A DNA stretch of 36,609 bases from a virus. Every line of letters begins with the position of its first letter. Within the stretch, counting starts at the first letter, position 1. The stretch covers positions 1 through 36,609 of IMG/VR virus record IMGVR_UViG_3300035698_033471. One strand, written 5' to 3'. Of the stretch, positions 6,613-35,709 are shown piece after piece. The position numbers were made by a program, and so were the translations under genes. The notes beneath the pieces are model-generated. The model had not been told where the DNA came from. It saw only the letters and a list, made by a program, of their open reading frames with translations, and searched no databases.

Positions 6613-7653
6613 TTATTCTATTAATTCTTTTTGAATATAATCGAAAATGTCGGAACGGTCGGTGCCGAGGCCAAACATAGTCATGTTCAAAGTAGGTGAC
6701 ACCTGTATTACTTTTTTACAAAGAGCGTCATTTGGCTGCTTCTCACAAGCAAACGTATTGTAGTTTTTTGCCAAAAACACCTCTCTTTTTATACTGGTAT
6801 AAATTTTGTTTCGAATAGTTTTAATGAAGTTTTCTGGGATGTCGGCAGTTCTTTTTGTTATCTTTGTAACAAATGGGTGTTTTTTACAAACAAGAAAATA
6901 GTTTTTATTTGCTGTGGCGATGGAATCAGCAGAAAGCCCAATAAGTTTTATAAGGTTGCCTTTTTCGTTAATTAAGCCTTCAAAACCATCTTCGTTTAAA
7001 AATCTGCTATGGTTGGTAAAGACAGATAATTTATACCAAAGAGTAACAAGTTTTTCTTGTTTAAAACTTATATTGCTAAAATTCGTTCCCAAATTCTTAT
7101 TTGCCTTTTGAGCGAATTCGGTAGTGGCAAAGCCCAGGAATATCGCTATATTTTGACTTTTAGTTTTATAAATTCCTCCAACCTTTAAATCGTTGTTTGG
7201 TATCGAATTAACGTTTTGAAGTTTTAATATTTTATAGTACAATTCGGATTTATATATTACCGGCGTATATTTTTTATTAATGATTGCAAAAACATATTTC
7301 CCAGGCAGTTTTCCATTCACACCAAGAGGCTTTTTTGTTAAGGAATTTAATAAAACATCAAACGAAATACTATGAACAAATTTATTGTCTATTAAAACCA
7401 TAGCTTTTTTATTATAATATCCTAGAAATTTAATCTCAACAGGCTTGTTACTATAAATTTTATATTGCTCATCATCTTTATATTTTTCTTTGCCCTTTTC
7501 ACCACTTACAACAAAAGGATGAATCATGTTATGGTTGCTTTTTAAAACTTTAGACTTTAACTCAGGGTATTCTAACCATTTTTGTATTTCAAAACTTTCG
7601 ACTGGGGCGAGGGAAAATACTATTTCTTTTGGTATCCTTGCAGTAAAAATCAT
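6613..7653 (-). CDS. Unknown protein, paralogue A flanking the polymerase gene
   Basis: A 346-residue protein of unrecognised family. Its ATG overlaps the stop codon of the DNA polymerase gene by one base (TAATG), so translation is coupled. It is a diverged paralogue of the protein encoded on the other side of the polymerase (11644-12852). Shared landmarks in the same order are the start (ARIPKEI / GTIPEEI), VGGIYKT...IAIFLGFATTE versus VGHIYRT...KALFLGFVNTI, ISF....L.TLW..L..F, a KKH motif, and a C-terminal PTL/GM...DIF segment. No enzymatic motif is visible. The tight linkage suggests a polymerase-associated or shared regulatory role, but this is inference. Confidence 0.75.
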   Translation of the reverse strand: MIFTARIPKEIVFSLAPVESFEIQKWLEYPELKSKVLKSNHNMIHPFVVSGEKGKEKYKDDEQYKIYSNKPVEIKFLGYYNKKAMVLIDNKFVHSISFDVLLNSLTKKPLGVNGKLPGKYVFAIINKKYTPVIYKSELYYKILKLQNVNSIPNNDLKVGGIYKTKSQNIAIFLGFATTEFAQKANKNLGTNFSNISFKQEKLVTLWYKLSVFTNHSRFLNEDGFEGLINEKGNLIKLIGLSADSIATANKNYFLVCKKHPFVTKITKRTADIPENFIKTIRNKIYTSIKREVFLAKNYNTFACEKQPNDALCKKVIQVSPTLNMTMFGLGTDRSDIFDYIQKELIE

Positions 7654-11643: not shown

Positions 11644-12852
11644 TCAGCTATTTTCTTTTTGTGCGAGTTTATTCTTTTTATGTTTTATTATTGCCTTAGA
11701 AATATCCGAATCTTTTCTTTTTAAAACAGGATCAAAAACATTAAAAATATCCGGTAATGTTGGTTCCATGCCGAACGGCACCATGCTTGAGAGTGTGGCA
11801 TGATTTGCACTTCGGGTTCGACGGGTTATATTTTTTGCTGTTGAATAGGTGGGTATTTTTTTCCAAGCGTCGGATTCGTTTTCAAGATTTTTATTATCAG
11901 CAGCATGGGTATAGCTTCTATTGTTTGCTAATTTATATTTAGAATTTATTGTCGCCTCCACAGACGAAGATGCCTTGCGCCTAAGCTTCATTATAATGTC
12001 ATCGGCAATTTCAAAACTATTGGCATCCACCTCTTCAATATATTTGTGCTTTTTTGTAACAATAATATGATAAAAAATTTCTGCATCATTTAAGCGTTTA
12101 GTAAGCTTCTTGCGGCCTTCATTAGAATCTATTTGTGTGGAAAAACTTGTTAAGTCACACCAAAGTGTATTTAAATCTGATCTCCTGAAGGAGATATCAT
12201 ATCTTATTGATTTGATCGGGGTATGATAGTTATATGGGTATCCACGTTTAGCTGTATTCTTGTCTTCTGGATGAACTCGAACCGTGGAGATTATCGTATT
12301 TACAAAACCTAAAAAGAGCGCTTTTTTATTATCTGCTGTACGATATATATGGCCGACATTCAATATCTCTAATCTATGAGCGCTTCTACTGCTCAGCTGT
12401 TTATAGTCTAAAATTGCCTTATGTATCCCTGTGCCAAGTCTTATTAATTTCATTTTACCAGGAACTTGTGCCCAAACCCATTCTCCGGGTATGACCCCGC
12501 CAGGAGCAATACCTTTATTTAACATAACTTCCATAAAGCAATCATGTTCCATTTCTGCCAAATAACCGTTCGGCAAAAGAACTCTGTGTTGGTCTTCATT
12601 TGTACTGTGTAGCGCTTTTCCAACTAGGCGTAAGTTGGTCATCGCATTGTTCGGCAGAACAATAACATTGCGGCCATGTTGCATTTTTGAATTGGCAACC
12701 AACACGGCACAATCTTTACCAAATAAAGGAGTTTTTGACAAGGCAATATCTTTGTTATATTTTTTATCAACCAATCTCCAACTTGTTTTAATTTCCCTTT
12801 GGTTGAATTCTAACAGTTTAATTTCCTCCGGTATCGTACCCTTGAAACTCAT
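11644..12852 (-). CDS. Unknown protein, paralogue B flanking the polymerase gene
   Basis: A 402-residue protein with no recognised family. The start is taken at the ATG at 12852, because AAAAGGA stands at good spacing before it and the resulting MSFKGTIPEEI aligns with MIFTARIPKEI of its paralogue; a TTG eight codons upstream has no ribosome-binding site. It shares several blocks in the same order with the protein on the far side of the polymerase (6613-7653), notably ILNVGHIYRTADNKKALFLGF, ISFRRSDLNTLW and the C-terminal FGMEPTLPDIF. The extra length is mainly a basic, probably disordered region near the C-terminus. Function unknown. Confidence 0.75.
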   Translation of the reverse strand: MSFKGTIPEEIKLLEFNQREIKTSWRLVDKKYNKDIALSKTPLFGKDCAVLVANSKMQHGRNVIVLPNNAMTNLRLVGKALHSTNEDQHRVLLPNGYLAEMEHDCFMEVMLNKGIAPGGVIPGEWVWAQVPGKMKLIRLGTGIHKAILDYKQLSSRSAHRLEILNVGHIYRTADNKKALFLGFVNTIISTVRVHPEDKNTAKRGYPYNYHTPIKSIRYDISFRRSDLNTLWCDLTSFSTQIDSNEGRKKLTKRLNDAEIFYHIIVTKKHKYIEEVDANSFEIADDIIMKLRRKASSSVEATINSKYKLANNRSYTHAADNKNLENESDAWKKIPTYSTAKNITRRTRSANHATLSSMVPFGMEPTLPDIFNVFDPVLKRKDSDISKAIIKHKKNKLAQKENS

Positions 12853-12879
12853 TTGCTTTTTCCTTTTGCTGACCAAATA

Positions 12880-13596: not shown

Positions 13597-14029
13597 AATT
13601 TCTTTTTGTCATCTGGCTAATGTTCAACCAGCCAAAATGCTCTTCCTTTCCAATATGTAGCCTACCACTATATGTTAAATATTTTTTCATATATTTTATA
13701 TTGTAGATGTAATTGAAAAAATTAGAAGGCATTTCGGCTATTTCAACAATTTTACAACTATCTTTTTTCAGCTTTTCTACCTCATCAGGCAGTTGTTTTT
13801 TGGTGCAATATTTTACATTTATAATTTCTGGGCTGTTCGACATCCAAATATCTGATTCAATATAAATAAAATATTGACCTCGGTTGATAGTTGATATGTC
13901 GCCATCTACCAGGTTGTAGTTTTTCTCTTTGTAAATTTTTTGTCTATTACCTTCAAACACATACATTTTACCCTCTTCGAGACCTAAAAATTCTACATTT
14001 TTAATTCTATCTTTCCTTCGGGCCATCAT
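13571..14029 (-). CDS. Unknown basic protein
   Basis: A 152-residue protein rich in Lys, Asn and aromatic residues, with no recognised domain. Its ATG overlaps the stop of the preceding GIY-YIG gene by one base (TAATG), and its 3' end overlaps the transglycosylase-like gene by 26 bp. No ribosome-binding site precedes it, so translation probably depends on coupling. It is real by its length, lack of a competing frame and tight packing, but nothing can be said about function. Confidence 0.5.
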   Translation of the reverse strand: MMARRKDRIKNVEFLGLEEGKMYVFEGNRQKIYKEKNYNLVDGDISTINRGQYFIYIESDIWMSNSPEIINVKYCTKKQLPDEVEKLKKDSCKIVEIAEMPSNFFNYIYNIKYMKKYLTYSGRLHIGKEEHFGWLNISQMTKRNFEENFKKQ

Positions 14030-14442
14030 TATAATTTTTCAAGGTAGGCAGGATTTGTAGTAGTGGCAACTTTGTATCTCCAAACAAAACCACCAGCAGA
14101 TTTTCTTTGATTTTTACAGCATTTTACAATGCTTGAAATATCAATTTTTGTACTTTTAGAAGCTTTTGAAAGTGAAGTAAATTCTGTTAGTAAATTATTG
14201 TTTATATCTATTTGATAAACCTTTTTCGATAATTTAAGTTTCGTCTCCAAGGAATGTTTTTTGTTTTTCCAAGAAGAAAGCAGATGTTTGTTATGGTGAT
14301 TACCCGCATTTAATCTTTTTTGATGTTGCGAGGATCTAACTTGAAAACATTTAGCACTTCCAATATAAATTTTACCGTTTTTAAGGTTACGGATTTGATA
14401 AATTCCACTTTTTTTAGAGTTGCCTCCATATTCTTTTTTCAT
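14029..14442 (-). CDS. Rearranged GIY-YIG homing endonuclease with NUMOD domains
   Basis: A 137-residue protein built from the front half of a GIY-YIG nuclease domain (GIY 13-15, YIG 26-28, Arg36, to SSWK at 56-59), a NUMOD3-like KKHSLETKLKLS (61-72), and a NUMOD1 DNA-binding domain (about 75-123, ending GGFVWRYK). The rear half of the catalytic domain with its metal-binding glutamate is missing compared with the paralogue at 16971-17267, so cleavage activity is unlikely. The last eleven residues, TTTNPAYLEKL, nearly duplicate the last eleven of the adjacent glycosyltransferase, TTTNGAYLENL, with about 22 of 30 bases identical. This looks like the footprint of insertion into, or recombination with, that gene's 3' end. 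Confidence 0.8.
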   Translation of the reverse strand: MKKEYGGNSKKSGIYQIRNLKNGKIYIGSAKCFQVRSSQHQKRLNAGNHHNKHLLSSWKNKKHSLETKLKLSKKVYQIDINNNLLTEFTSLSKASKSTKIDISSIVKCCKNQRKSAGGFVWRYKVATTTNPAYLEKL

Positions 14443-14561: not shown

Positions 14562-15302
14562 CTACAAATTTTCAAGATATGCCCCGTTCGTAGTAGTTCC
14601 ACGTCTATAGCAATATAGCGGAGCTTTCAATATGCTTGTTTTTTGCAATAGTAAGGTTAATTTCGTATTAAAATCTGAATCTTCTGCCTTTTGACATCGA
14701 AGTCCCATGTTTCCAGGCATAAATTTCATTCCATGATCCCATAATTGCCTGTGGAATAGAGCGCTTGCGCCGTGTACTTCATATTGGCCTGTATAATAAT
14801 GATTTATACCTTGTGTTTGATGACCCTTATGAACAAGTGACAAGACTTCTTTGTGTCCCATTGTTGGCAGAGCATTTGCATCAAATAGGATTTGTGATGC
14901 AGCCTGAACTTGTTCTTCACTTTCGCAATTTGCAAACCCACAAAGAGTGTGATAACTTCTGTTTTCGATTAAAGTTTTGACTGTAAGTTCAAGGCGCTGT
15001 GGTGATGAAGCATCATCTGCATCTTGCGTTGTTATTAACGCACCTTGTGCTCGCTGAGAGATTCCTTGATTTAAAGCATTCCATTTGCCCGTATTCTTTT
15101 TAACAAATAAAGGCTTTACAATTCTTTTATCTAGTTTAGATAGATCATTAATAACGTCGGCGCTTTGGTCTGTTGATGCGTCGTCGACAATTATTATTTC
15201 AAAGTTCTCATAAGTTTGATTTAATATTGAACGTACCGCCAGTTCAATATATTTTTCATGATTATAATTTGCAACCACTACTGATACTTTTGGATTATTC
15301 AT
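14562..15302 (-). CDS. Family 2 glycosyltransferase
   Basis: A 246-residue GT-A-fold glycosyltransferase: start KVSVVVANYNHEKYI, the nucleotide-binding EIIIVDDASTD, a DXD-type TQDADDASSP that binds metal and sugar nucleotide, and EDSDFN as the likely catalytic-base region. There is no signal or membrane segment, so it acts in the cytoplasm on a sugar acceptor that cannot be deduced (phage DNA base, virion protein or host surface precursor). It overlaps the preceding small gene by 8 bp. Its C-terminal TTTNGAYLENL reappears at the end of the neighbouring GIY-YIG gene. Confidence 0.9.
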   Translation of the reverse strand: MNNPKVSVVVANYNHEKYIELAVRSILNQTYENFEIIIVDDASTDQSADVINDLSKLDKRIVKPLFVKKNTGKWNALNQGISQRAQGALITTQDADDASSPQRLELTVKTLIENRSYHTLCGFANCESEEQVQAASQILFDANALPTMGHKEVLSLVHKGHQTQGINHYYTGQYEVHGASALFHRQLWDHGMKFMPGNMGLRCQKAEDSDFNTKLTLLLQKTSILKAPLYCYRRGTTTNGAYLENL

Positions 15303-16848: not shown

Positions 16849-16977
16849 TTACACTGGCGTCAATAAATCATTTCGCAGTTTATCTCGACGAAGTTTTTTA
16901 TATATTCTCATACAGTCTTTACACTGCGAGCGGTAATAATTTTTGTCAGAAATATTTCTATAAAAGTTGTTTACTGT
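16849..16977 (-). pseudogene. Decayed zinc-finger domain remnant after GIY-YIG gene
   Basis: Directly after the GIY-YIG stop, another frame reads NNFYRNISDKNYYRSQCKDC then MRIYKKLRRDK and ends in TAA at 16851-16849. It has no start codon. The pattern F-(x)n-YxSxCKxC-(x)n-Y-x-x-LR resembles the second half of the small zinc fingers attached to phage homing endonucleases. The first Cys pair is not seen. It is most likely the former DNA-binding C-terminus of the adjacent GIY-YIG protein, cut off by a frameshift and partial deletion. Confidence 0.5.
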
Positions 16978-17267
16978 TTATTTTCTTTGATAAGCTTATC
17001 AATGTAGCCTTGTTCAATTTTAAAGCGTTCGCCTTTGGCACCCTCAACAACTTCGAGAACTTCAAACAGAAAAGCATCCTCGCCATGTTTGTTCCACGAG
17101 GCCTGAAGATGCTTGTTTTTATGCTTATTGTTTTTTAATGACGAGTAATGACCAGATGCCCTTTCTCGAAATCGCTTAGCAGAACCAATGTAAAATTTAC
17201 CGTTCCTAGCGTTTGTTATTTTATAGATGCTGCCTTTATTGGCATGACCGTCGAATATTTTTTTCAC
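16971..17267 (-). CDS. GIY-YIG endonuclease, catalytic domain only
   Basis: A 98-residue protein holding a complete GIY-YIG nuclease domain: GSIYKITN, KFYIGSAKRF, the catalytic Arg in RFRERASGH, ASWNKHGEDAFLFEVLE, and a metal-binding Glu in KIEQGYIDKL. The start is taken as GTG at 17267, since AGGAAA lies seven bases upstream and the product MKKIFDGHANKGSIYKI then aligns with MKKEYGGNSKKSGIYQI of the paralogue at 14029-14442; the ATG at 17285 has no ribosome-binding site. No DNA-binding domain is fused, but a zinc-finger remnant lies in another frame just beyond the stop. Confidence 0.82.
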   Translation of the reverse strand: MKKIFDGHANKGSIYKITNARNGKFYIGSAKRFRERASGHYSSLKNNKHKNKHLQASWNKHGEDAFLFEVLEVVEGAKGERFKIEQGYIDKLIKENKQ

Positions 17268-17337
17268 GGAAGTTTCCTGTCTCATACAAAATGATTTATA
17301 TCAATTATTACAAGACAGAGAGCAGGTTTTGTATAAT

Positions 17338-24738: not shown

Positions 24739-25506
24739 ATGTCTATGATTAAAACTAAAAAACATAATAAAATAAAAGGCTCACAAGCAATTAAGGAAGA
24801 TCGTAACGAGCTATCAAGAGAGTATGTTAGTCATATAAAAAACAAGTTTCCTGAGCTTCACGATGATTTATTGAGAATTGCAAAATTTACTATAAAGCGT
24901 GTCAGTCAAGATGAAACTCCATCAGAAAATTTAGAAAACCTGTCTGCTATATTAAAGTTAGAACCTGATGCAGACCCAAGAACCTCTGGGGATACGCACG
25001 GAGTTAGGCTTTATATAGATCATCTTCTTAGAGATGAAGATAAGCAAATAGCTGGCCAAGTCAAAAGATGGTATCAATCAGCAATGGACCAGATGCTTAA
25101 AAAACAGTATATCGGCGACAAAAACAAAAAAAGCAATTTTGACGAATCTAACATAAGAAAATATGTAGAGTCTGTTTTGAACGAAGGAATCAGTTCCGAT
25201 GCGCAAAACCCAGTTCGTCAGCCTTTTGATATGAAAGTTCCAGCAGATATAAAAAAAATCTCGGCAATCTTTAAAAAAGAAGGCTTTAGTTTGTATATTG
25301 TCGGAGGCGCAGTTAGGGATGAACTAATGGGGAAGACTCCGAAAGATTATGATTTGGCAACAAACGCTCTACCGGATGAAATTTTGACAATATTGAAAAA
25401 TGCGAATTATAAAACCTTGGAAGTCGGCAAGGCTTTTGGGGTGGTGAATGTAATCACTCCAGATAAAAATGAATATGAGATTGCCACCTTTAGAAAAGAT
25501 TTGTAA
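24739..25506 (+). CDS. CCA-adding tRNA nucleotidyltransferase, N-terminal part with extension
   Basis: 255 residues. The first ~165 are phage-specific and include a helical segment NIRKYVESVLNEG. From residue 184 the class II nucleotidyltransferase head begins: LYIVGGAVRDELMG, then the catalytic DYDLAT (Asp203, Asp205) and ATFRKDL, where an in-frame TAA ends the frame. The next codon is an ATG that continues the same enzyme in the same frame. This could be a split enzyme made by stop-and-restart (TAA-ATG), readthrough, or a recent nonsense mutation. The product would add CCA to tRNA 3' ends, useful here because several phage tRNAs lack an encoded CCA. Confidence 0.85.
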   Translation: MSMIKTKKHNKIKGSQAIKEDRNELSREYVSHIKNKFPELHDDLLRIAKFTIKRVSQDETPSENLENLSAILKLEPDADPRTSGDTHGVRLYIDHLLRDEDKQIAGQVKRWYQSAMDQMLKKQYIGDKNKKSNFDESNIRKYVESVLNEGISSDAQNPVRQPFDMKVPADIKKISAIFKKEGFSLYIVGGAVRDELMGKTPKDYDLATNALPDEILTILKNANYKTLEVGKAFGVVNVITPDKNEYEIATFRKDL

Positions 25507-26328
25507 ATGAATTCAAAACACAGAAAACCAGAAGTTGAACTTGGCGTTTCAATGGCAATGGATAGCCAGCGCCGGGATCTTACGATCAATGCTCTTTTTT
25601 ATGATATTGACAGAAGAGAAATTGTTGATTTTGTTGGAGGAATTGAAGACATTCAAAATGGAGTAGTTAAATCAGTAGGTAATGCCAAGCTTAGATTTGA
25701 TGAAGACAGACTTAGAATTTTAAGAGCGATTCGATTTGCAGCCAGGCTAGGAGTCGGCATGGCCGAGGAAACCACTAAGGCTATTATCGAAGATAATTCT
25801 TTAAAAGGCATATCCCCAGAAAGAATTAGGGACGAATTTATTAAAAGCATTAGAAGTGCCAAATCTATAAAGTATCTTTTCGGCCTATATGACAAGTTCG
25901 GCTTATGGGAAAATATTCTACCTGGAATAAAGGTTGATAAAAGATATATTGAAGAGAGTGACCCGATGAAACAATTGGCTTTTTTAACTTTAAATAACGA
26001 ACCAAAAGTCTTGTCTAAAAAATTGAACAGTCTAAGGTATGGTTCATCCGAAATAAAAAAGGTATTGTTTTTAAACATGCTGAAAGATTTAAATCCAGGC
26101 TCTGCTTATAAAATGCGAAAGTTGCGAATGTCAGTAAATCTTACAAATTCTGATCTGAAAGATTTTTCTACACTGACAAATAAAATCAACGACAGGTTTG
26201 TTGATGCTTTTAACAAATATGAAATAAGTTCTGATGGCGATACAATTATGAAATTGGGGTTCTCTGGGAAAGAGCTTGGTAAGGAAATTTTGCGTCGAGA
26301 AACAGAAAGTTTTATTAAATTGTTGTAG
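25507..26328 (+). CDS. CCA-adding tRNA nucleotidyltransferase, C-terminal part
   Basis: 273 residues continuing the enzyme immediately after the in-frame TAA. It carries the remaining class II motifs: RRDLTINALFYDI (nucleotide-selection loop), DEDRLRILRAIRFAARLG, and ISPERIRDEF, then the helical neck and body. Neither half alone has the complete active-site cleft, since the catalytic aspartates are in the upstream piece. There is no strong ribosome-binding site before the ATG at 25507, although TAAATG would allow termination-reinitiation. Both halves look well conserved across all motifs, so the break does not look old. Confidence 0.85.
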   Translation: MNSKHRKPEVELGVSMAMDSQRRDLTINALFYDIDRREIVDFVGGIEDIQNGVVKSVGNAKLRFDEDRLRILRAIRFAARLGVGMAEETTKAIIEDNSLKGISPERIRDEFIKSIRSAKSIKYLFGLYDKFGLWENILPGIKVDKRYIEESDPMKQLAFLTLNNEPKVLSKKLNSLRYGSSEIKKVLFLNMLKDLNPGSAYKMRKLRMSVNLTNSDLKDFSTLTNKINDRFVDAFNKYEISSDGDTIMKLGFSGKELGKEILRRETESFIKLL

Positions 26329-27534: not shown

Positions 27535-27854
27535 GTATTGAAGTGATTGTTGCGTCGCCTGGTCAATTGGTTAAAGTTACCTGGCCGTCCGGAAGATACA
27601 ATAGTTTATATGATACTCTTCATAGAAAATTATTAGGTATACTTGCAAATAAAACGAATAAAAGTAAAAAAATTATCTTTAGTTTTCGATCGGTCGGCCT
27701 TCTTGATTTTCATAGGGACAATGTTATTTTTATTGAAAATGGGGAGTATGCAATTTTCTTAAAAAATATTCAAGAAGGACTCACACAAATTCTTTACAAT
27801 GAAAAAATTTGTTATGTAGAAAATTTTCTTATCTCTAAAAACAATGGTGAATAA
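27531..27854 (+). CDS. Unknown small protein (GTG start)
   Basis: 107 residues from GTG 27531, which overlaps the preceding TGA; AAGG stands just before it. Sequence: MSIEVIVASPGQLVKVTWPS..., mixed alpha/beta, no recognised domain. Ends right before the SGNH hydrolase gene, with which it is likely co-translated. Confidence 0.5.
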   Translation: MSIEVIVASPGQLVKVTWPSGRYNSLYDTLHRKLLGILANKTNKSKKIIFSFRSVGLLDFHRDNVIFIENGEYAIFLKNIQEGLTQILYNEKICYVENFLISKNNGE

Positions 27855-27855
27855 A

Positions 27856-28497
27856 ATGAAATATAAAATACTGGCCTTATTAACCTTAACTCTTGTTTTC
27901 ATATTTTCTTCAAAGGTAAATGCGCAAAACAACAAAAATGCATTTGATGGTAAAACAATCTTGGTAATCGGTGACTCGCAGACAGCTGGGAACTTTGGTG
28001 ATGCTTTGAGGGGTCAATTTGCTTCAAACAATGCAAATCGATTCGTAAAAGAAGGTCATGTTGGCTGGGGTATTAGGCGTTGGTCAAATAATAAATTTTT
28101 AGCAAAAAGACTAATAAGAAAATATAAACCGGACGTATTAATAATTCAGCTAGGTGGAAACGATCACGTCCGGTCCTATCGCCTTGATTACAAATATGAA
28201 GTGATAGACTTTTGGCGAACTTTAACCTGGGAAGCAAAATCCAATAACGAAAATGTAAAACATTGTTGGATTTCCCCCCCACGGGCAGTAGGTAGAAATG
28301 CAGATATTCAAAAGGGCCGTCAACGAGCGGGAACCAAAATTAAAAATACTATTGGTAAAAAATATTATATTGAATCTGAGGATATAACAGGGCACTATGG
28401 TCGTACTCCTGATGGTTTGCATTTTACACCTGGCGGGGCTCTTGATTGGGCATTGCAAGCTATGCCAAGAATTTCTTCTTGCGTAAAGGGTCAATAA
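27856..28497 (+). CDS. Exported SGNH-type hydrolase
   Basis: 213 residues from ATG 27856 (GGTGA upstream), chosen because it gives a standard signal sequence ending VNAQ. SGNH/GDSL hydrolase blocks are GDSQ (39-42, nucleophile Ser41), GGND (100-103), and DGLHFTPGG with Asp186 and His189 completing the triad. Likely a periplasmic esterase or deacetylase acting on cell-wall or envelope polysaccharide. It is encoded immediately before the transglycosylase gene, so the two probably act together on peptidoglycan during lysis or entry. Confidence 0.85.
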   Translation: MKYKILALLTLTLVFIFSSKVNAQNNKNAFDGKTILVIGDSQTAGNFGDALRGQFASNNANRFVKEGHVGWGIRRWSNNKFLAKRLIRKYKPDVLIIQLGGNDHVRSYRLDYKYEVIDFWRTLTWEAKSNNENVKHCWISPPRAVGRNADIQKGRQRAGTKIKNTIGKKYYIESEDITGHYGRTPDGLHFTPGGALDWALQAMPRISSCVKGQ

Positions 28498-29181
28498 ATG
28501 AACTATTTTAGAATAATTGTAGTGTCTGCTCTATTATTTACAGCCACATCGAACACTGAGGCACAATCTATTACAGAGGAAAGCTTGGTTGTTCAAAATG
28601 AAAGTATTAGTGTTCAAAAAACCCTGATGGTAGAATCTCTTTTACAAAAATTGACAGTTTGGGTAAGACCTTTCGACGGCAAGCGTATTTATGCTTATAA
28701 CTGTCGAAGCTTGCGTTATGGTTGCGCTGCACAAGTTGAAGCTTTTGTTGAATATATTTTTGATGTTTCAATTGATAAAAAATTTGATCCTTGGCTTCTC
28801 GCCGGTATTGCTTGGCACGAGTCTGCCTTCCACCCCTTTGCAGAATCCCATGCTGGCGCCGTCGGCATACTACAGCTCTTACGGCGTTCACGTTGGTCAC
28901 GAGGACTTCCATTTGTCCATCAATCTTGGTATAGGAAACGATGCCGTCGCATCCTTGGCTCTTGTCAGCGACCGATCGTGGAGCGTTCGGTATTCTGGCT
29001 CAAACGCTCCTTTAATTATTGTAGGTCTGTCGAAAAAGGACTACGCCTATACAATTCTGGCCGGTGCGACGGTCCAAAGAAATACCCCCGCCGTGTTTTT
29101 TTTGCTAAGAAGGACATTGTAAAAAGAGCAAGAAAGTATTTATTTGAGCACATTCATGATTTTGGACCTCGTGTTCCATAA
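28498..29181 (+). CDS. Exported lytic transglycosylase (SLT-like)
   Basis: 227 residues with a signal sequence (cleavage likely after TEAQ). The SLT fold shows DPWLLAGIAWHESAFHPF with catalytic Glu108-Ser109, AGAVGILQL (120-127), and a YNSGRC segment corresponding to the family's (A)YN motif. It starts directly after the SGNH hydrolase stop. It is the catalytically complete paralogue of the protein at 12880-13596. The segment after GILQL is unusually rich in Arg with CGN codons and higher GC than its neighbours, while the homologous residues on both sides keep the frame, so it seems real but compositionally odd. Likely the main peptidoglycan-cutting enzyme of the lysis set. Confidence 0.8.
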   Translation: MNYFRIIVVSALLFTATSNTEAQSITEESLVVQNESISVQKTLMVESLLQKLTVWVRPFDGKRIYAYNCRSLRYGCAAQVEAFVEYIFDVSIDKKFDPWLLAGIAWHESAFHPFAESHAGAVGILQLLRRSRWSRGLPFVHQSWYRKRCRRILGSCQRPIVERSVFWLKRSFNYCRSVEKGLRLYNSGRCDGPKKYPRRVFFAKKDIVKRARKYLFEHIHDFGPRVP

Positions 29182-29774: not shown

Positions 29775-30638
29775 ATGATTAAAAAAATACCTGTTCAGCA
29801 ACTACACGATCGTATTGCTACAATTGTAAAAGAAGAAGTAAAAAGAGCTTTGAACGAGGATGTTGATCCTGCGTTCAATAGAGTTCCAAAATCACAGAAA
29901 AAAGATTTTGTTGCTTGGGTTATGAGGCAATACTTTGACCCAGATAAGCACAATAGAAAAATTTGGTTCGATCCAAAAATCACCAAAGATACTGTTTTGG
30001 ATTATATCAGTTCTGGTCGTGGTATGAAATTGTTTCCAAATTCAAATAAAAATCTTGTTAGTCTTTGGAAACTTAAGTTAGACCTCAATTCTAAACTTGG
30101 AACGCTTGACGATGAATTTGATGATTCAAATGAAGAAGATGATGAACCTGCAACAAAATATCAAACTGGTGATGTTTCACTTAAAGACATTGGTAAAGAG
30201 CTTGGTGGAGTTACCCCTACCTTAATTAATAAAATTGAAACATCTGGTATGAAAAAACTTGCCCAACTTACTGGTGGAAAGCACCCTTCGGACCTGGATG
30301 CAGAAGAGCTTGAAGCTTTCTTAACAAAAGTTAAGACTGCCCGTCGTGATGGCGCATCGGAATTTGCCGATCTACTACTGGCGGCTAAAGATGTTAAAGA
30401 CTTTATTAAAGTTTTGGCCAAACGCCAAATACTTGCTCCCACGGATATAAAACTTATGAAGTCCCAGGAGTTTGATGGTCTTGAATTTCTTAAGACTAAA
30501 CCAAAAGATAAAATCGTGCTTATCTTAATGCAAGACATTGAAGAGTCGGATAATCTTTTTGACAGCTACCAGGCTTATGTTTCTAAAAAGGTATTCCCGC
30601 CAGGTAAGCGTGGTCGCCCTCGTAAGAAAAAAGATTAA
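29775..30638 (+). CDS. DNA-binding protein with sigma-70 region 4-like HTH and RGRP tail
   Basis: 287 residues. Residues 133-165 (TGDVSLKDIGKELGGVTPTL...) closely follow the sigma region 4.2 pattern (SLxEIGxxLGVTxxxIxxIE..ALxKL), with one extra glycine. The C-terminus PPGKRGRPRKKKD is an AT-hook-like basic motif. The N-terminus has the amphipathic HDRIATIVKEEVKRALNE seen in other proteins of this window. No regions 2 or 3 are present, so it is not a standard sigma factor; it may be a phage transcription regulator, a co-activator like T4 gp33/gp55, or a packaged DNA-binding protein. A strong GAGGGA precedes the ATG, and a terminator follows. Confidence 0.7.
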   Translation: MIKKIPVQQLHDRIATIVKEEVKRALNEDVDPAFNRVPKSQKKDFVAWVMRQYFDPDKHNRKIWFDPKITKDTVLDYISSGRGMKLFPNSNKNLVSLWKLKLDLNSKLGTLDDEFDDSNEEDDEPATKYQTGDVSLKDIGKELGGVTPTLINKIETSGMKKLAQLTGGKHPSDLDAEELEAFLTKVKTARRDGASEFADLLLAAKDVKDFIKVLAKRQILAPTDIKLMKSQEFDGLEFLKTKPKDKIVLILMQDIEESDNLFDSYQAYVSKKVFPPGKRGRPRKKKD

Positions 30639-32642: not shown

Positions 32643-32717
32643 GGCCCCATAGTTTAACAGGTTTAGAATACCGGACTCTCAATCCGGGGATCGAGGGTTC
32701 AAATCCCCGTGGGGTCA
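32643..32717 (+). tRNA. tRNA-Glu(CTC), copy 1
   Basis: Acceptor GGCCCCA / TGGGGTC (one G-T), anticodon stem CCGGA/TCCGG with loop CTCTCAA, giving anticodon CTC. The T stem has only three good pairs. Discriminator A is followed by CCG, so no full CCA is encoded. Confidence 0.85.
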
Positions 32718-32796
32718 CCGAACAAACATTTTGAGATCTATGACAATTGAATAGGATAATCAGTTTGCCTGTGCTGGTACCACGAAACAGGCGTTT

Positions 32797-32872
32797 GGGT
32801 TGTTAGCTCAGTTGGTAGAGCAGTCGCCTTTTAAGCGAACGGCCATAGGTTCAAACCCTTCCCCGAGAGCCA
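32797..32872 (+). tRNA. tRNA-Lys(TTT), acceptor stem mismatched
   Basis: The D arm (TAGCTCAGTTGGTAGAGCA) and anticodon loop with TTT are textbook tRNA-Lys. The 3' part ends with GCCA as an encoded CCA, but the 5' acceptor GGGTTGT cannot pair with the 3' strand CCCGAGA, and the T stem keeps only three pairs. It looks like a chimera or decayed tRNA. A GCCTGT/ACAGGC hairpin lies just upstream (32767-32792). Confidence 0.6.
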
Positions 32873-32894
32873 ATAACAAAGAAAAGATTTATTA

Positions 32895-32969
32895 TCCGGG
32901 TGTAGGGTAATTGGTAACCCACTCCATTTGGGGTGGAGAATTTGCAAGTTCAAGTCTTGCCACTCGGAC
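32895..32969 (+). tRNA. tRNA-Pro(TGG)
   Basis: Acceptor TCCGGGT/ACTCGGA, anticodon stem CTCCA/TGGAG, loop TTTGGGG giving anticodon TGG with G37 as in tRNA-Pro. T arm GCAAG/CTTGC is good. Confidence 0.85.
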
Positions 32970-32973
32970 CATT

Positions 32974-33049
32974 GTTCCTGAAGCTCAATTGGATGAGCAA
33001 TCGCCTCCTAAGCGATAGGTTGCCGGTTCGAATCCGACCAGGAACGCCA
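32974..33049 (+). tRNA. tRNA-Arg(CCT)
   Basis: Acceptor GTTCCTG/CAGGAAC perfect, anticodon stem ATCGC/GCGAT, loop CTCCTAA giving CCT. Discriminator G and CCA are encoded. Reads AGG. Confidence 0.92.
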
Positions 33050-33056
33050 ATATTTT

Positions 33057-33130
33057 GCCCAGGTAGCCCAAATGGCAGAGGCAACAGGTTCAAATTCTGT
33101 AAAGTGCGAGTTCAAATCTCGCCCTGGGTA
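33057..33130 (+). tRNA. tRNA-Leu(CAA) with short variable arm
   Basis: Acceptor GCCCAGG/CCTGGGT, anticodon stem ACAGG/TCTGT, loop TTCAAAT giving CAA, T arm GCGAG/CTCGC perfect, discriminator A. The variable region is only five bases (AAAGT), whereas bacterial tRNA-Leu is normally class II with a long variable arm. No encoded CCA. Confidence 0.75.
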
Positions 33131-33139
33131 CTAAAACAT

Positions 33140-33222
33140 GCTGATATGGCGGAATGGCAGACGCCGGGCACTTAAAATGCTCTGATTGAAAGGTCGTGCA
33201 GGTTCGAGTCCTGCTATCAGCA
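33140..33222 (+). tRNA. tRNA-Leu(TAA)
   Basis: Acceptor GCTGATA/TATCAGC perfect, anticodon stem GGGCA/TGCTC, loop CTTAAAA giving TAA, a long class II variable arm and T arm GCAGG/CCTGC. Discriminator A, no encoded CCA. Confidence 0.92.
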
Positions 33223-33230
33223 CTAAATTT

Positions 33231-33299
33231 AGAACGCTAGCTTATTGGTAAAGCCCGCAATTGTATGCGGAGAACAGAGTTCGATTCTTTGGCGTTCTA
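33231..33299 (+). tRNA. tRNA, probably Thr(TGT), short anticodon loop
   Basis: Acceptor AGAACGC/GCGTTCT perfect, D stem GCTT/AAGC, T stem CAGAG/CTTTG. The anticodon stem CCGCA/TGCGG leaves only a six-base loop ATTGTA; the best reading is T33-TGT. At 69 nt it is shorter than usual. The isotype is uncertain. Confidence 0.65.
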
Positions 33300-33301
33300 C
33301 T

Positions 33302-33395
33302 AAGTTGTCACCGTGGCGAAACTGGCACACGCACTCTTCGAAGGTCGAGGTTCTTTTATTAGATGCAGGTTCGAATCCTGTCGGAAAGACAACTT
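33302..33395 (+). other. Class II tRNA-like structure with interrupted stem
   Basis: A good T arm (GCAGG TTCGAAT CCTGT) and Leu/Ser-like D arm (TGGCGAAACTGGCACACGC) are enclosed by AAGTTGTC/GACAACTT and CCG/CGG, separated by an internal loop of A opposite AAA. The anticodon stem does not fold cleanly. It is a decayed or unusual tRNA. Confidence 0.5.
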
Positions 33396-33485
33396 TTATT
33401 TAGTTGATATAATATTCAACTGCAGGGCGCCTCGGATTTTCTTAAAGGAATAAATATCCTACCAGGCACCAGGAGACATGTTCTA

Positions 33486-33544
33486 AAGAATGGTACAATT
33501 GGTAGATACTTGTTAATATCTAACGACGGTTTGTACCATTTTCT
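33486..33544 (+). other. Minimal tRNA-Asn-like stem structure without T arm
   Basis: Outer stem AAGAATGGTACA / TGTACCATTTTCT, an inner anticodon-like stem AGATA/TATCT with an 8-nt loop containing T-GTT-A (Asn anticodon). There is no T arm and little D arm; total about 59 nt. The stretch before it, 33396-33485, has further short inverted repeats (AGTTGA/TCAACT) but no recognisable tRNA. Confidence 0.4.
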
Positions 33545-33572
33545 ATATTTCATCCCTTGCGGTTTATCCACA

Positions 33573-33600
33573 AGGCCCCTATAGGCTCCGGCTTATAGGG
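33573..33600 (+). other. Hairpin before tRNA-Ser
   Basis: CCCTATA / TATAGGG, 7-bp stem with a 10-base GC-rich loop. Immediately upstream of tRNA-Ser; either a processing element or an intergenic terminator-like stem without a U-tract. Confidence 0.4.
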
Positions 33601-33603
33601 CTT

Positions 33604-33688
33604 GGAAAACAATCTAGTCTGGGACTAGGATCGGTTGCTAACTGATACGGAGTATTGCTCTGGGGTTCGATTCCTCTGTTTTCCGCCA
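33604..33688 (+). tRNA. tRNA-Ser(GCT)
   Basis: Acceptor GGAAAAC/GTTTTCC perfect, anticodon stem ATCGG/CTGAT, loop TTGCTAA giving GCT, class II variable arm, discriminator G and encoded CCA. The D region is atypical, with a CTAGTC/GACTAG hairpin. Confidence 0.88.
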
Positions 33689-33699
33689 ATTTATTATAA

Positions 33700-33880
33700 T
33701 ATGGGGTGGTTGGTAAATTGAACAACCGACAGGGCGTGGTCGGACAATCTATTGATTTCGAGAGCCAAGCAAGGTAAGTGCACGGAACCCTCCTTGGACT
33801 GCGGGTTTGAATCCCGTACACTCTACAAATTGTTGGTCGCTGGTGTTAATGTAGGGTGAAGCAAATAGAGATTTAGACCA
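33700..33880 (+). other. Unresolved structured RNA region with a tRNA T arm
   Basis: A good T arm, GCGGG TTTGAAT CCCGT, at 33801-33817, and stems GGTTG/CAACC and CCGAC/GTCGG at about 33711-33743, but no canonical acceptor or anticodon arm connects them. A further stem TTGGTC/GACCAA spans about 33833-33881. Probably decayed tRNAs. Confidence 0.35.
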
Positions 33881-33917
33881 AAATTATAAAATGCTAATAT
33901 CTTATTATACTTTTATT

Positions 33918-34466
33918 ATGACTATAGGATATCTACACATTAAAGCTTGGCGACACAGAACCAAAGATAGGTTAATTGAGGCTTTTGGCGGTTCTTGTGG
34001 TCTTTGTGATTACTCGGTATATTCTGGGAATCTTGTATTTCATCATTTAAATCCCGCAGAAAAGAATTTTAGCATAGCAAAAAACCACTGTGCCAGTTGG
34101 AGCACCCTTGTGTCTGAAGTTAGAAAGTGTGTAATGATTTGCCATAACTGCCACGGAGAAGTTCATGCCGGTTTATTCCCTTTGCCTGAAAATATTAGGA
34201 GGTTTGATGAAAGCTATGCAGAGTACAGAATTCCGCACGAATCAGTAACAGATCAGTGCGTTTGCGGGGCTGAAAAGGCCGTCATACGAAACTTTTGTTC
34301 AAGTAAATGTTTTTCAAAAAGTATGCAAAGGATTGACTGGGACGCAATAGATTTAGTTGCATTAATACACGAGCATAAAACTTATGTAAAGGTCGGACAA
34401 GTTTTAGGTGTCAGCGACAGTACGGTAAAAAAACGACTAAAAAGAATACAAGCAAATTCCCAGTAG
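33918..34466 (+). CDS. HNH homing endonuclease in the tRNA array
   Basis: 182 residues from ATG 33918 (an ATG at 33891 would add nine hydrophobic residues; neither has a ribosome-binding site). The HNH nuclease is framed by zinc pairs C27-x-x-C30 and C75-x-x-C78, with His42-His43 in LVFHHLNPAEKNFS and the final H in NCHGEVHAGL. A second cysteine cluster (CVCG...FCSSKC) and a C-terminal helix-turn-helix (KVGQVLGVSDSTVKKRLKR) supply DNA binding. Such enzymes cut intronless alleles to spread themselves; its place between tRNA genes suggests mobility of this tRNA locus. Confidence 0.88.
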   Translation: MTIGYLHIKAWRHRTKDRLIEAFGGSCGLCDYSVYSGNLVFHHLNPAEKNFSIAKNHCASWSTLVSEVRKCVMICHNCHGEVHAGLFPLPENIRRFDESYAEYRIPHESVTDQCVCGAEKAVIRNFCSSKCFSKSMQRIDWDAIDLVALIHEHKTYVKVGQVLGVSDSTVKKRLKRIQANSQ

Positions 34467-34475
34467 GACAAGCCT

Positions 34476-34552
34476 GGCCCCATAGTTTAGTGGTTTAGAA
34501 CTCACGGTTCTCAACCGTGCGACGGCGGGTTCAATTCCCCCTGGGGTCACCA
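34476..34552 (+). tRNA. tRNA-Glu(CTC), copy 2
   Basis: Acceptor GGCCCCA/TGGGGTC, anticodon stem CACGG/CCGTG, loop TTCTCAA giving CTC, encoded CCA after A73. The acceptor strands are identical to copy 1 at 32643, but the anticodon stem and T arm differ. The T stem has one mismatch. Confidence 0.88.
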
Positions 34553-34619
34553 CTGATAATAATATTTACAATATAAAAAAATCGTGTTAATCTAATAATC
34601 TAATTTCAAGGAGAATAAA

Positions 34620-34946
34620 ATGAACTTAGCAATAAAAAAACTGGGATTCGCATTTATGACAATGCTTGCTTTTAGCCTAGTAATCCCTGTAGCCCAAGCC
34701 TGGTGGACCGCAAACGCCCAAGTTCGCCTGACCCGGACGCAAATTAGATCAACTGTCACCAATAGGCATTCAAGACCAATTTATTGTAAAGGATATGTGT
34801 ATGGCAGGACTCGCAGCGGTCAGGTTTTCCAAAATTCCTCAAACGGCATAGTGTATCCAAATAGTTACGGGTATATTTATGTACGAACGAGTTATTATAA
34901 TCCATTCGTTCATGGCTGGGCGCAAGTTAAATGTAAATTTAATTAA
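34620..34946 (+). CDS. Small secreted protein between tRNA genes
   Basis: 108 residues with a strong AAGGAG site and a textbook signal sequence (MNLAIKKLGFAFMTMLAFSLVIPVA, cleavage after AQA). The mature part is beta-type, rich in Tyr, Thr and Ser, with two cysteines that could pair (PIYCKGYVYG and QVKCKFN). It has the look of a bacterial periplasmic protein and may be host-derived cargo. No family recognised with confidence. Confidence 0.75.
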   Translation: MNLAIKKLGFAFMTMLAFSLVIPVAQAWWTANAQVRLTRTQIRSTVTNRHSRPIYCKGYVYGRTRSGQVFQNSSNGIVYPNSYGYIYVRTSYYNPFVHGWAQVKCKFN

Positions 34947-34954
34947 ATGGATTC

Positions 34955-35028
34955 ACCATTGTAGCCCAATTGGCAGAGGCGCCACATTAAGGATGTGGTT
35001 GGTGCAGGTTCGACTCCTGTCAACGGTA
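34955..35028 (+). tRNA. tRNA-Leu(AAG) with short variable arm
   Basis: Acceptor ACCATTG/CAACGGT with one mismatch, anticodon stem CCACA/TGTGG, loop TTAAGGA giving AAG with G37, T arm GCAGG/CCTGT, discriminator A. The variable region has only five bases, and the D arm closely resembles the Leu(CAA) gene at 33057, so these two form a short-variable-arm Leu pair. Confidence 0.75.
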
Positions 35029-35044
35029 CTAAAATAAACAATAT

Positions 35045-35121
35045 TGCGGGGAGAGTAGACTTAGTTCTCAAGTAGGGCTCATAATCCTACCCATGTTGGT
35101 GCGACACAACCCCCGCAACCA
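35045..35121 (+). tRNA. tRNA-Met/Ile2(CAT) with aberrant T arm
   Basis: Acceptor TGCGGGG/CCCCGCA perfect, A73 and encoded CCA, anticodon stem TAGGG/TCCTA, loop CTCATAA giving CAT. The T arm folds only as a 4-bp stem GTTG/CAAC with loop GTGCGACA, lacking the usual TTC. Confidence 0.75.
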
Positions 35122-35151
35122 ATTAGATCAGCCGACCCAATTGGTTGATGC

Positions 35152-35232
35152 GGGTGATATTCCACACAGGTAGTGGTCCTGGTTTGTAACACCAGTGCTT
35201 TTGCATTGAAGGTTCGAGTCCTTCATCACCCA
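35152..35232 (+). tRNA. tRNA-Tyr(GTA)
   Basis: Acceptor GGGTGAT/ATCACCC perfect, anticodon stem CTGGT/ACCAG, loop TTGTAAC giving GTA, class II variable hairpin TGC TTTT GCA, T arm GAAGG/CCTTC. Discriminator A, no full CCA. Confidence 0.92.
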
Positions 35233-35241
35233 CAAAGTTAT

Positions 35242-35313
35242 ACTATCTCGAAAATTGGTAATACCTGTAGGTTTAGCTTTTGCCTCTGGAGAGAAAGCCG
35301 TCCTGGGATAGTT
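35242..35313 (+). other. tRNA-like sequence, degenerate
   Basis: Acceptor ACTATCT/GGATAGT pairs at all seven positions (one G-T) and length is 72, but the anticodon stem is mostly G-T pairs (loop TTTAGCT, possibly TAG) and no T loop is recognisable. Confidence 0.45.
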
Positions 35314-35361
35314 ATCCAAAGGGCATCAATTCATTTTGGGTTTTCTATAAAACTCATTCTT

Positions 35362-35433
35362 GCTGCCTGAGCTATTGTGGAACAGCATAGGTTTGAAGCA
35401 CCTAGACGCTTGGATCGATGCCGAGAGGCAGCA
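35362..35433 (+). tRNA. tRNA-Phe(GAA)
   Basis: Acceptor GCTGCCT/AGGCAGC perfect, anticodon stem TAGGT/ACCTA, loop TTGAAGC giving GAA, T stem CTTGG/CCGAG with loop ATCGATG (A at position 54). Discriminator A. Confidence 0.88.
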
Positions 35434-35437
35434 CAAA

Positions 35438-35509
35438 TACCCCTATAGGTTAATGGCAAACCCTTCGGCTTTGAACCGAAAAATAAACGTTCGAATCGTT
35501 TTGGGGTTC
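35438..35509 (+). tRNA. tRNA-Gln(TTG)
   Basis: Anticodon stem TTCGG/CCGAA, loop CTTTGAA giving TTG, T arm AAACG TTCGAAT CGTTT perfect. Acceptor TACCCCT/TGGGGTT has five pairs with open ends; a weak 1-72 pair is a known feature of tRNA-Gln. No encoded CCA. Confidence 0.82.
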
Positions 35510-35515
35510 TAATTT

Positions 35516-35586
35516 TGTGGATTCGTCCAACGGTAGGACAATTGTTCCTGATACAATTAATGTGGGTTCGATTCCCTCATCCACAT
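35516..35586 (+). tRNA. tRNA-Gln(CTG) with C33
   Basis: Acceptor TGTGGAT/ATCCACA perfect with the weak T1-A72 pair of tRNA-Gln, anticodon stem ATTGT/ACAAT, loop TCCTGAT giving CTG. Position 33, nearly always T, is C. T stem has one mismatch. Confidence 0.75.
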
Positions 35587-35709
35587 CCGGTCATAGTGGC
35601 AAGTTTTATGTTTATAGTTTTTGGGAATATTATCTCCGTAATGTTCAATATCCTGGTCATAACAGCAGCTAATGTTCATTATGTTGTTCATTATAAAATA
35701 TTCACTGCC

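Follow-up and report, generated by a model that had tools for sequence, protein, structure and literature searches.

The window, a linear virus record of 36.6 kb from an uncultured phage (36,609 nucleotides, analysed as a whole), carries at 24739-26328 a gene that sequence comparison and a structure model identify as that of a class II tRNA nucleotidyltransferase (CCA-adding enzyme). The single continuous chain usual for this class of enzyme is interrupted here by a TAA at 25504-25506, which, judged from the alignment and the model, falls inside the flexible loop of the enzyme. The explanation that we consider probable, with some reservation, is that the gene has truly undergone fission and specifies a CCA-adding enzyme of two chains by way of termination-reinitiation, and we infer that the two chains are expressed, assemble and are active.

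An enzyme gene divided in its flexible loop

The gene consists of two adjoining open reading frames on the + strand, 24739-25506 and 25507-26328, which lie in one frame with a gap of 0 nt. The features referred to below are:

24739-25506, + strand: N-fragment of the CCA-adding enzyme, 255 aa, ending in TAA; N-terminal extension, motif A and third catalytic acid
24739-25203, + strand: N-terminal extension, residues 1-155, mostly helical in the structure model
25300-25353, + strand: motif A, VGGAVRD...KDYD, residues 188-205, with carboxylates D203 and D205; conserved columns
25477-25479, + strand: E247 of EIATFR, invariant in 70 relatives at the level of at least 95%
25492-25575, + strand: diverged stretch, residues about 252-279, with 3 extra codons
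25504-25506, + strand: TAA stop within the frame, at residue 256, inside the flexible loop
25507-26328, + strand: C-fragment of the CCA-adding enzyme, 273 aa, with ATG start and TAG stop
25552-25560, + strand: two alternative ATG codons in frame (25552 and 25558), at the point where the sequence becomes conserved again
25570-25578, + strand: RRD of motif B, residues 278-280; conserved columns
25702-25716, + strand: EDRLR, templating motif D, residues 322-326; conserved columns
32643-35588, + strand: tRNA cluster of 12-13 genes, most without an encoded CCA

A family search with the whole frame returned a single match (1.1e-38, 127 bits) with '1 TAA' inside, while the Pfam domain PF01743 (PolyA_pol head) is divided by the break, profile positions 1-68 lying in the first frame and 74-125 of 126 in the second. 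PF01743 scores above cut-off in both pieces, and PF12627 (RNA-binding domain) is found in the second. The nearest solved sequences are those of E. coli poly(A) polymerase and of bacterial and human CCA-adding enzymes, and a structure model of the full-length frame, with the stop ignored, is matched best by the CCA-adding enzyme PhaCCA. Frames, Pfam and family search together confirm the original prediction of a CCA-adding enzyme gene with a single in-frame TAA followed by ATG, and the motif positions agree with its placing of DxD (D203, D205) before the stop and of RRD after it; EDRLR and SPERIRDEF (residues 359-367) also follow the stop. The catalytic motifs DxD, RRD and EDxxR are all kept (D203, D205, R278-D280, E322, D323 and R326). 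E247, which by homology we take to be the third catalytic acid, lies before the break; the C-fragment contains the RRD motif, neck, body, tail and templating motif D, the role of the latter type of motif being taken from PMC7014341. The N-terminal extension, in which residues 22-149 make up a separate and mostly helical region, is absent from ordinary CCA-adding enzymes and has no Pfam match; homologues of it occur in the phage loci L048, L023/L024 and L016.

Class II enzymes possess a flexible loop between motifs A and B (residues 82-93 in PhaCCA, disordered in most crystals), which acts as the lever of the CTP-to-ATP switch, and enzymes in which it is deleted or mutated are restricted to CC-addition (PMC8563995, PMC7014341). 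In the window the break lies between the strand with the third catalytic acid and the helix preceding RRD, and in the model the TAA (residue 256) falls in a dip of confidence between a strand (245-250) and a helix (272-277). The gene contains 232 single-base routes to a stop, 5% of which lie in the loop (residues 251-271) and 2% before an ATG; both together would occur in about 0.1%, if independent.

The window copy keeps 58 of the 61 columns conserved at 95% or more in 70 relatives, and the three that deviate (263, 267 and 272, with 267 possibly due to an alignment shift) all lie within 16 residues after the stop. A sliding-window comparison ranks it 15th of 71 overall and shows it to be typical everywhere except over residues 252-284, where it is the worst of the 71, with recovery by about residue 280; single dips elsewhere (e.g. 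310-324) are much shallower. The diverged stretch is the sole region in which the window copy is the most deviant of the 71 sequences. Its loop is three codons longer than those of L023 and L048, and the conserved GRRPDxVEF of relatives is replaced by HRKPEVELG, the lowest score of the 71. Compensating frameshifts were sought by reading the other two frames of about 25490-25570 by hand, and GRRPDxVEFTTIENDV is found in neither. The spacer between the stop and the later ATGs stays open and retains R262, P264 and D275, and no further stop or frameshift is present in the 529 codons. The claim of 'no other damage' therefore holds for frame and motifs but not for the loop, with its three extra codons and strong divergence. 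This state of the loop argues against a lone wrong base or a fresh nonsense mutation in a normal loop, while the ordinary divergence outside residues 252-279 or so argues against a general decay of the gene. It is possible that the loop drifted first and that the nonsense change came later.

Intact and divided genes in related phages

Two syntenic relatives of the window, L023/L024 and L048, have an intact CCA gene. The shared neighbourhood comprises the large terminase, opposite-strand genes of 155 and 103 aa and then the CCA gene with the same N-terminal extension; L023 also has homologues of the downstream window genes 27844-28497, 28498-29181 and 29775-30638. Between the window and L023/L048 the terminase is 62-64% identical and the C-part of the CCA enzyme 50-53%, compared to 75% and 65% between L023 and L048, and the CCA gene thus diverges at a rate in line with its neighbours. 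Uninterrupted relatives combined with obvious decay of this copy had been named at the outset as evidence against a functional split; L023/L024 and L048 are indeed uninterrupted, but no general decay is seen here. The CCA gene is likewise intact in those remaining phage loci that do not belong to the split group, and in the bacterial genome scan the loop is uninterrupted in all loci read (by regular expression and translations; L136 left out). L016, with a terminase 74% identical, covers just the first 43 residues of the CCA gene and stops short of the loop. An apparent insert in its terminase match was rejected, being a second, shorter terminase-like gene (L016:960-1720) directly upstream of the full large terminase and about 20% identical to the window terminase. 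Protein, neighbour-gene and 20-mer scans revealed no near-identical strains with the same junction (L127, from the 20-mer scan, is a chance match), a DNA-level search of phage records gave no match, and none of the relatives compared has a stop at the loop without an endonuclease.

Other relatives carry the gene in two pieces. L014, the sister of L048 in the tree (support 100/95) and by the tree of the same phage family, has the gene interrupted at this same loop by an insert that encodes an endonuclease-like protein with a GIY-YIG-like start (by eye) and NUMOD3 (Pfam). Its C-fragment (L014:1088-1453) is in frame with about 120 upstream residues that lack a Pfam match, possibly a fusion. Seven more distant phage loci are also split (L064, the L081 group, L087, L097, L122, L124/L125 and L126; L081 equals L083/L085 and is near L082, L118-L121 being grouped with it, and L087 goes with L117). 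They follow the plan of enzyme fragment, GIY-YIG homing endonuclease gene, enzyme fragment, only the last part being visible in L097, which is cut by the contig end.

The break follows ATFRxD in the window and in all endonuclease-split relatives. In the latter the N-fragment continues in frame into a tail of the pattern L..F..YLK....(F/Y)..F...L(M/V)K, which is exactly 32 codons long after a shared 12-residue stretch in L064, L081, L087, L122 and L126, and the C-fragment has a head, W..IA......EF..., preceding GRRPD. As these peptides recur and stay open in AT-rich DNA they are probably translated, the codon-position substitution pattern being weakly informative, and their conservation as protein makes the split relatives look like gene fissions rather than introns. 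A group I intron in L014 was considered and rejected, as Rfam found no intron in its insert (the insert scanned) even at E<=5; a self-splicing intron in the window is ruled out, there being no insert. In several split loci the exon DNA for EIATFR, GAAATAGCGACTTTTAGA, occurs again in the insert just past the stop of the N-fragment (LMK TAG), duplicating coding sequence from before the break (L064:2130-2150, L081:2530-2550, L087:2362-2382 and the same place in L124-L126). Split and intact loci are intermingled in the tree, a pattern that speaks for recurrent insertion or homing; since the window sits on a long branch and its precise position is uncertain, synteny and the N-terminal extension were used to place it. 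GRRPDxV.F..I..D after the break is kept by the other split copies and lost in the window, so that the function of the window loop may be impaired.

In the window, no endonuclease gene lies between the two pieces (0-nt gap), and no endonuclease remnant, tail or head peptide was seen there. It may be speculated that a homing endonuclease first split the gene by insertion and subsequently disappeared, an origin which is possible but, given the lack of such traces, unsupported. Elsewhere in the window, a GIY-YIG frame (14029-14442) ends in TTTNPAYLEKL, a near copy of TTTNGAYLENL at the end of the adjacent glycosyltransferase-like gene (14562-15302), as if an endonuclease had inserted at the end of that gene and duplicated its tail, and a second short GIY-YIG endonuclease gene lies at 16971-17285. 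The proteins of 6613-7653 and 11644-12876 have a local motif in common (AIFLGFATT/ALFLGFVNT) and appear to be distant paralogues.

Expression of the junction and competing explanations

In E. coli and Haloferax, reinitiation has dropped steeply once the distance reaches about 20 nt, and subunits of a common complex are overrepresented among gene pairs with a spacing of -8 to +10 nt (PMC10666635). The 0-nt gap lies within this range and fits coupled reinitiation, and since no Shine-Dalgarno signal precedes 25507 the second piece would depend on such coupling. The pair 27844-28497/28498-29181 has the same TAA-ATG junction, but with a weak purine-rich signal upstream; there the junction (28495-28500) joins, in one frame, two unrelated genes, SGNH-type hydrolase and transglycosylase-like. 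In the proposed mechanism one message would yield two polypeptides, the ribosomes stopping at the TAA and restarting at the abutting ATG; the two chains would fold together, the break lying in a surface loop, and the complex would complete the 3' ends of the CCA-less tRNAs of the phage. Termination-reinitiation, as originally put forward, stands as the best-supported reading, with expression and activity as its inferred part. It is supported by related phages with two cistrons cut in the same loop, by the retention of the conserved positions and the ordinary divergence outside the loop, and by the stop in the flexible loop, the 0-nt gap and the phage precedents of working split enzymes. It is weakened by the lack of endonuclease, tail and head peptides and of a Shine-Dalgarno signal, and by the intact gene of the syntenic L023/L024 and L048.

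Inactivation of the gene, by drift of the loop followed by a nonsense codon, with the phage using the host enzyme and the rest of the gene undecayed so far, is unlikely, though it has to be taken seriously: hosts possess a CCA-adding enzyme of their own, only the window copy has lost a stretch downstream of the stop that is otherwise conserved, and the nearest syntenic relatives are intact. This is countered by the undamaged remainder of the 529 codons, by the retention of every conserved column outside the 16 residues after the stop, by the low probability that a chance nonsense mutation would hit this loop and stand in front of an ATG, and by the use of the same loop as a proven break point in relatives. 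A sequencing or assembly error, with a sense codon in the true genome, is improbable. The record is a single metagenome contig, and TAA is one base away from TAT, TAC, CAA, AAA, GAA, TTA and TCA; yet one wrong base does not account for the altered loop, which is three codons longer and the least conserved of 71, and the remaining large genes of the window are undamaged.

Programmed readthrough of the TAA into one long chain, an option raised in the original prediction, finds a downstream frame that is intact and conserved, but it is highly improbable and otherwise unsupported: TAA ends 24 of the 37 genes of the window (a genome-wide reassignment of the stop is rejected, TAA being the main terminator), none of the tRNAs found in the window has a stop anticodon, no relative has at the loop an endonuclease-free stop to be read through, and UAA is the least leaky stop. 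There is also a very slim chance that the second chain starts at 25552 or 25558, leaving the loop mostly untranslated and the enzyme capable of CC-addition only. Constraint does return at about residue 275, beside these two ATGs, and loss or mutation of the loop restricts class II enzymes to CC-addition (PMC7014341). The ATGs, however, stand 45-51 nt past the stop, beyond the coupling range (PMC10666635), neither has a clear ribosome-binding site, and the spacer is open with R262, P264 and D275 kept.

tRNA substrates and known parallels

The tRNA genes of the window number 12 by ARAGORN and one more by Rfam, and only the Pro, Arg and second Glu tRNAs have an encoded CCA end, bearing out the expectation that several phage tRNAs lack one. 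The CCA-less tRNAs of the cluster are likely substrates of the enzyme, and as they form the majority a CCA-adding activity would matter to the phage. The Rfam-only tRNA-like sequence (32797-32865) has an apparent anticodon TTT (Lys) and a poorly pairing acceptor stem, and the tRNA at 33231-33300 has a six-base anticodon loop and could not be named by ARAGORN (Gln or Thr).

Compared to the class II CCA-adding enzymes (PhaCCA 7OQX/6QY6, BstCCA 1MIV; phrog_2244), the window enzyme has the same predicted fold, motifs A, B and D, catalytic residues and domain order, and differs in its two frames cut in the flexible loop, its N-terminal helical extension and its diverged loop. Split phage enzymes are known from Aeh1 nrdA (mobE), T4 topoisomerase (mobA) and gene 43 of phages 25 and 44RR, and the products of Aeh1 nrdA and of 43A/43B of Aeromonas phage 25 are active (PMC2988022). 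Like the Aeh1, T4 and phage 25 cases, the window has one conserved enzyme in two pieces, and its relatives have an endonuclease in the gap; unlike them, the window has neither endonuclease nor gap, the enzyme acts on tRNA, the break lies in a functional loop and activity is predicted. Gene 43A/43B of 44RR is likewise split without an endonuclease in the gap, but has an untranslated spacer where the window has abutting stop and start (PMC2988022). In the bacterial and eukaryotic pairs of CC-adding and A-adding enzymes the CCA activity is also divided, the flexible loop being the part that evolves (PMC7014341); these are two complete enzymes from two genes, whereas the window has fragments of which neither holds a full active site. 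No report of a fragment-split CCA-adding enzyme was found in the literature searched, the coverage of which is incomplete.

A wider and rather doubtful interpretation, offered tentatively, is that phages repeatedly cut the CCA enzyme at its C-to-A switch loop, usually by means of a GIY-YIG endonuclease, and that the window represents an endonuclease-free end state in which the cut loop has been remodelled. The two-chain enzyme may then have an altered C/A specificity or assembly and possibly be CC-adding only, the last A being supplied by the host enzyme. The CCA-adding enzyme gene emerges as a new and recurrently hit target among the few phage enzymes split by homing endonucleases. As the flexible loop is the presumed lever for the untemplated addition of C, C and A, a natural enzyme with this lever cut would provide a direct test of the model.
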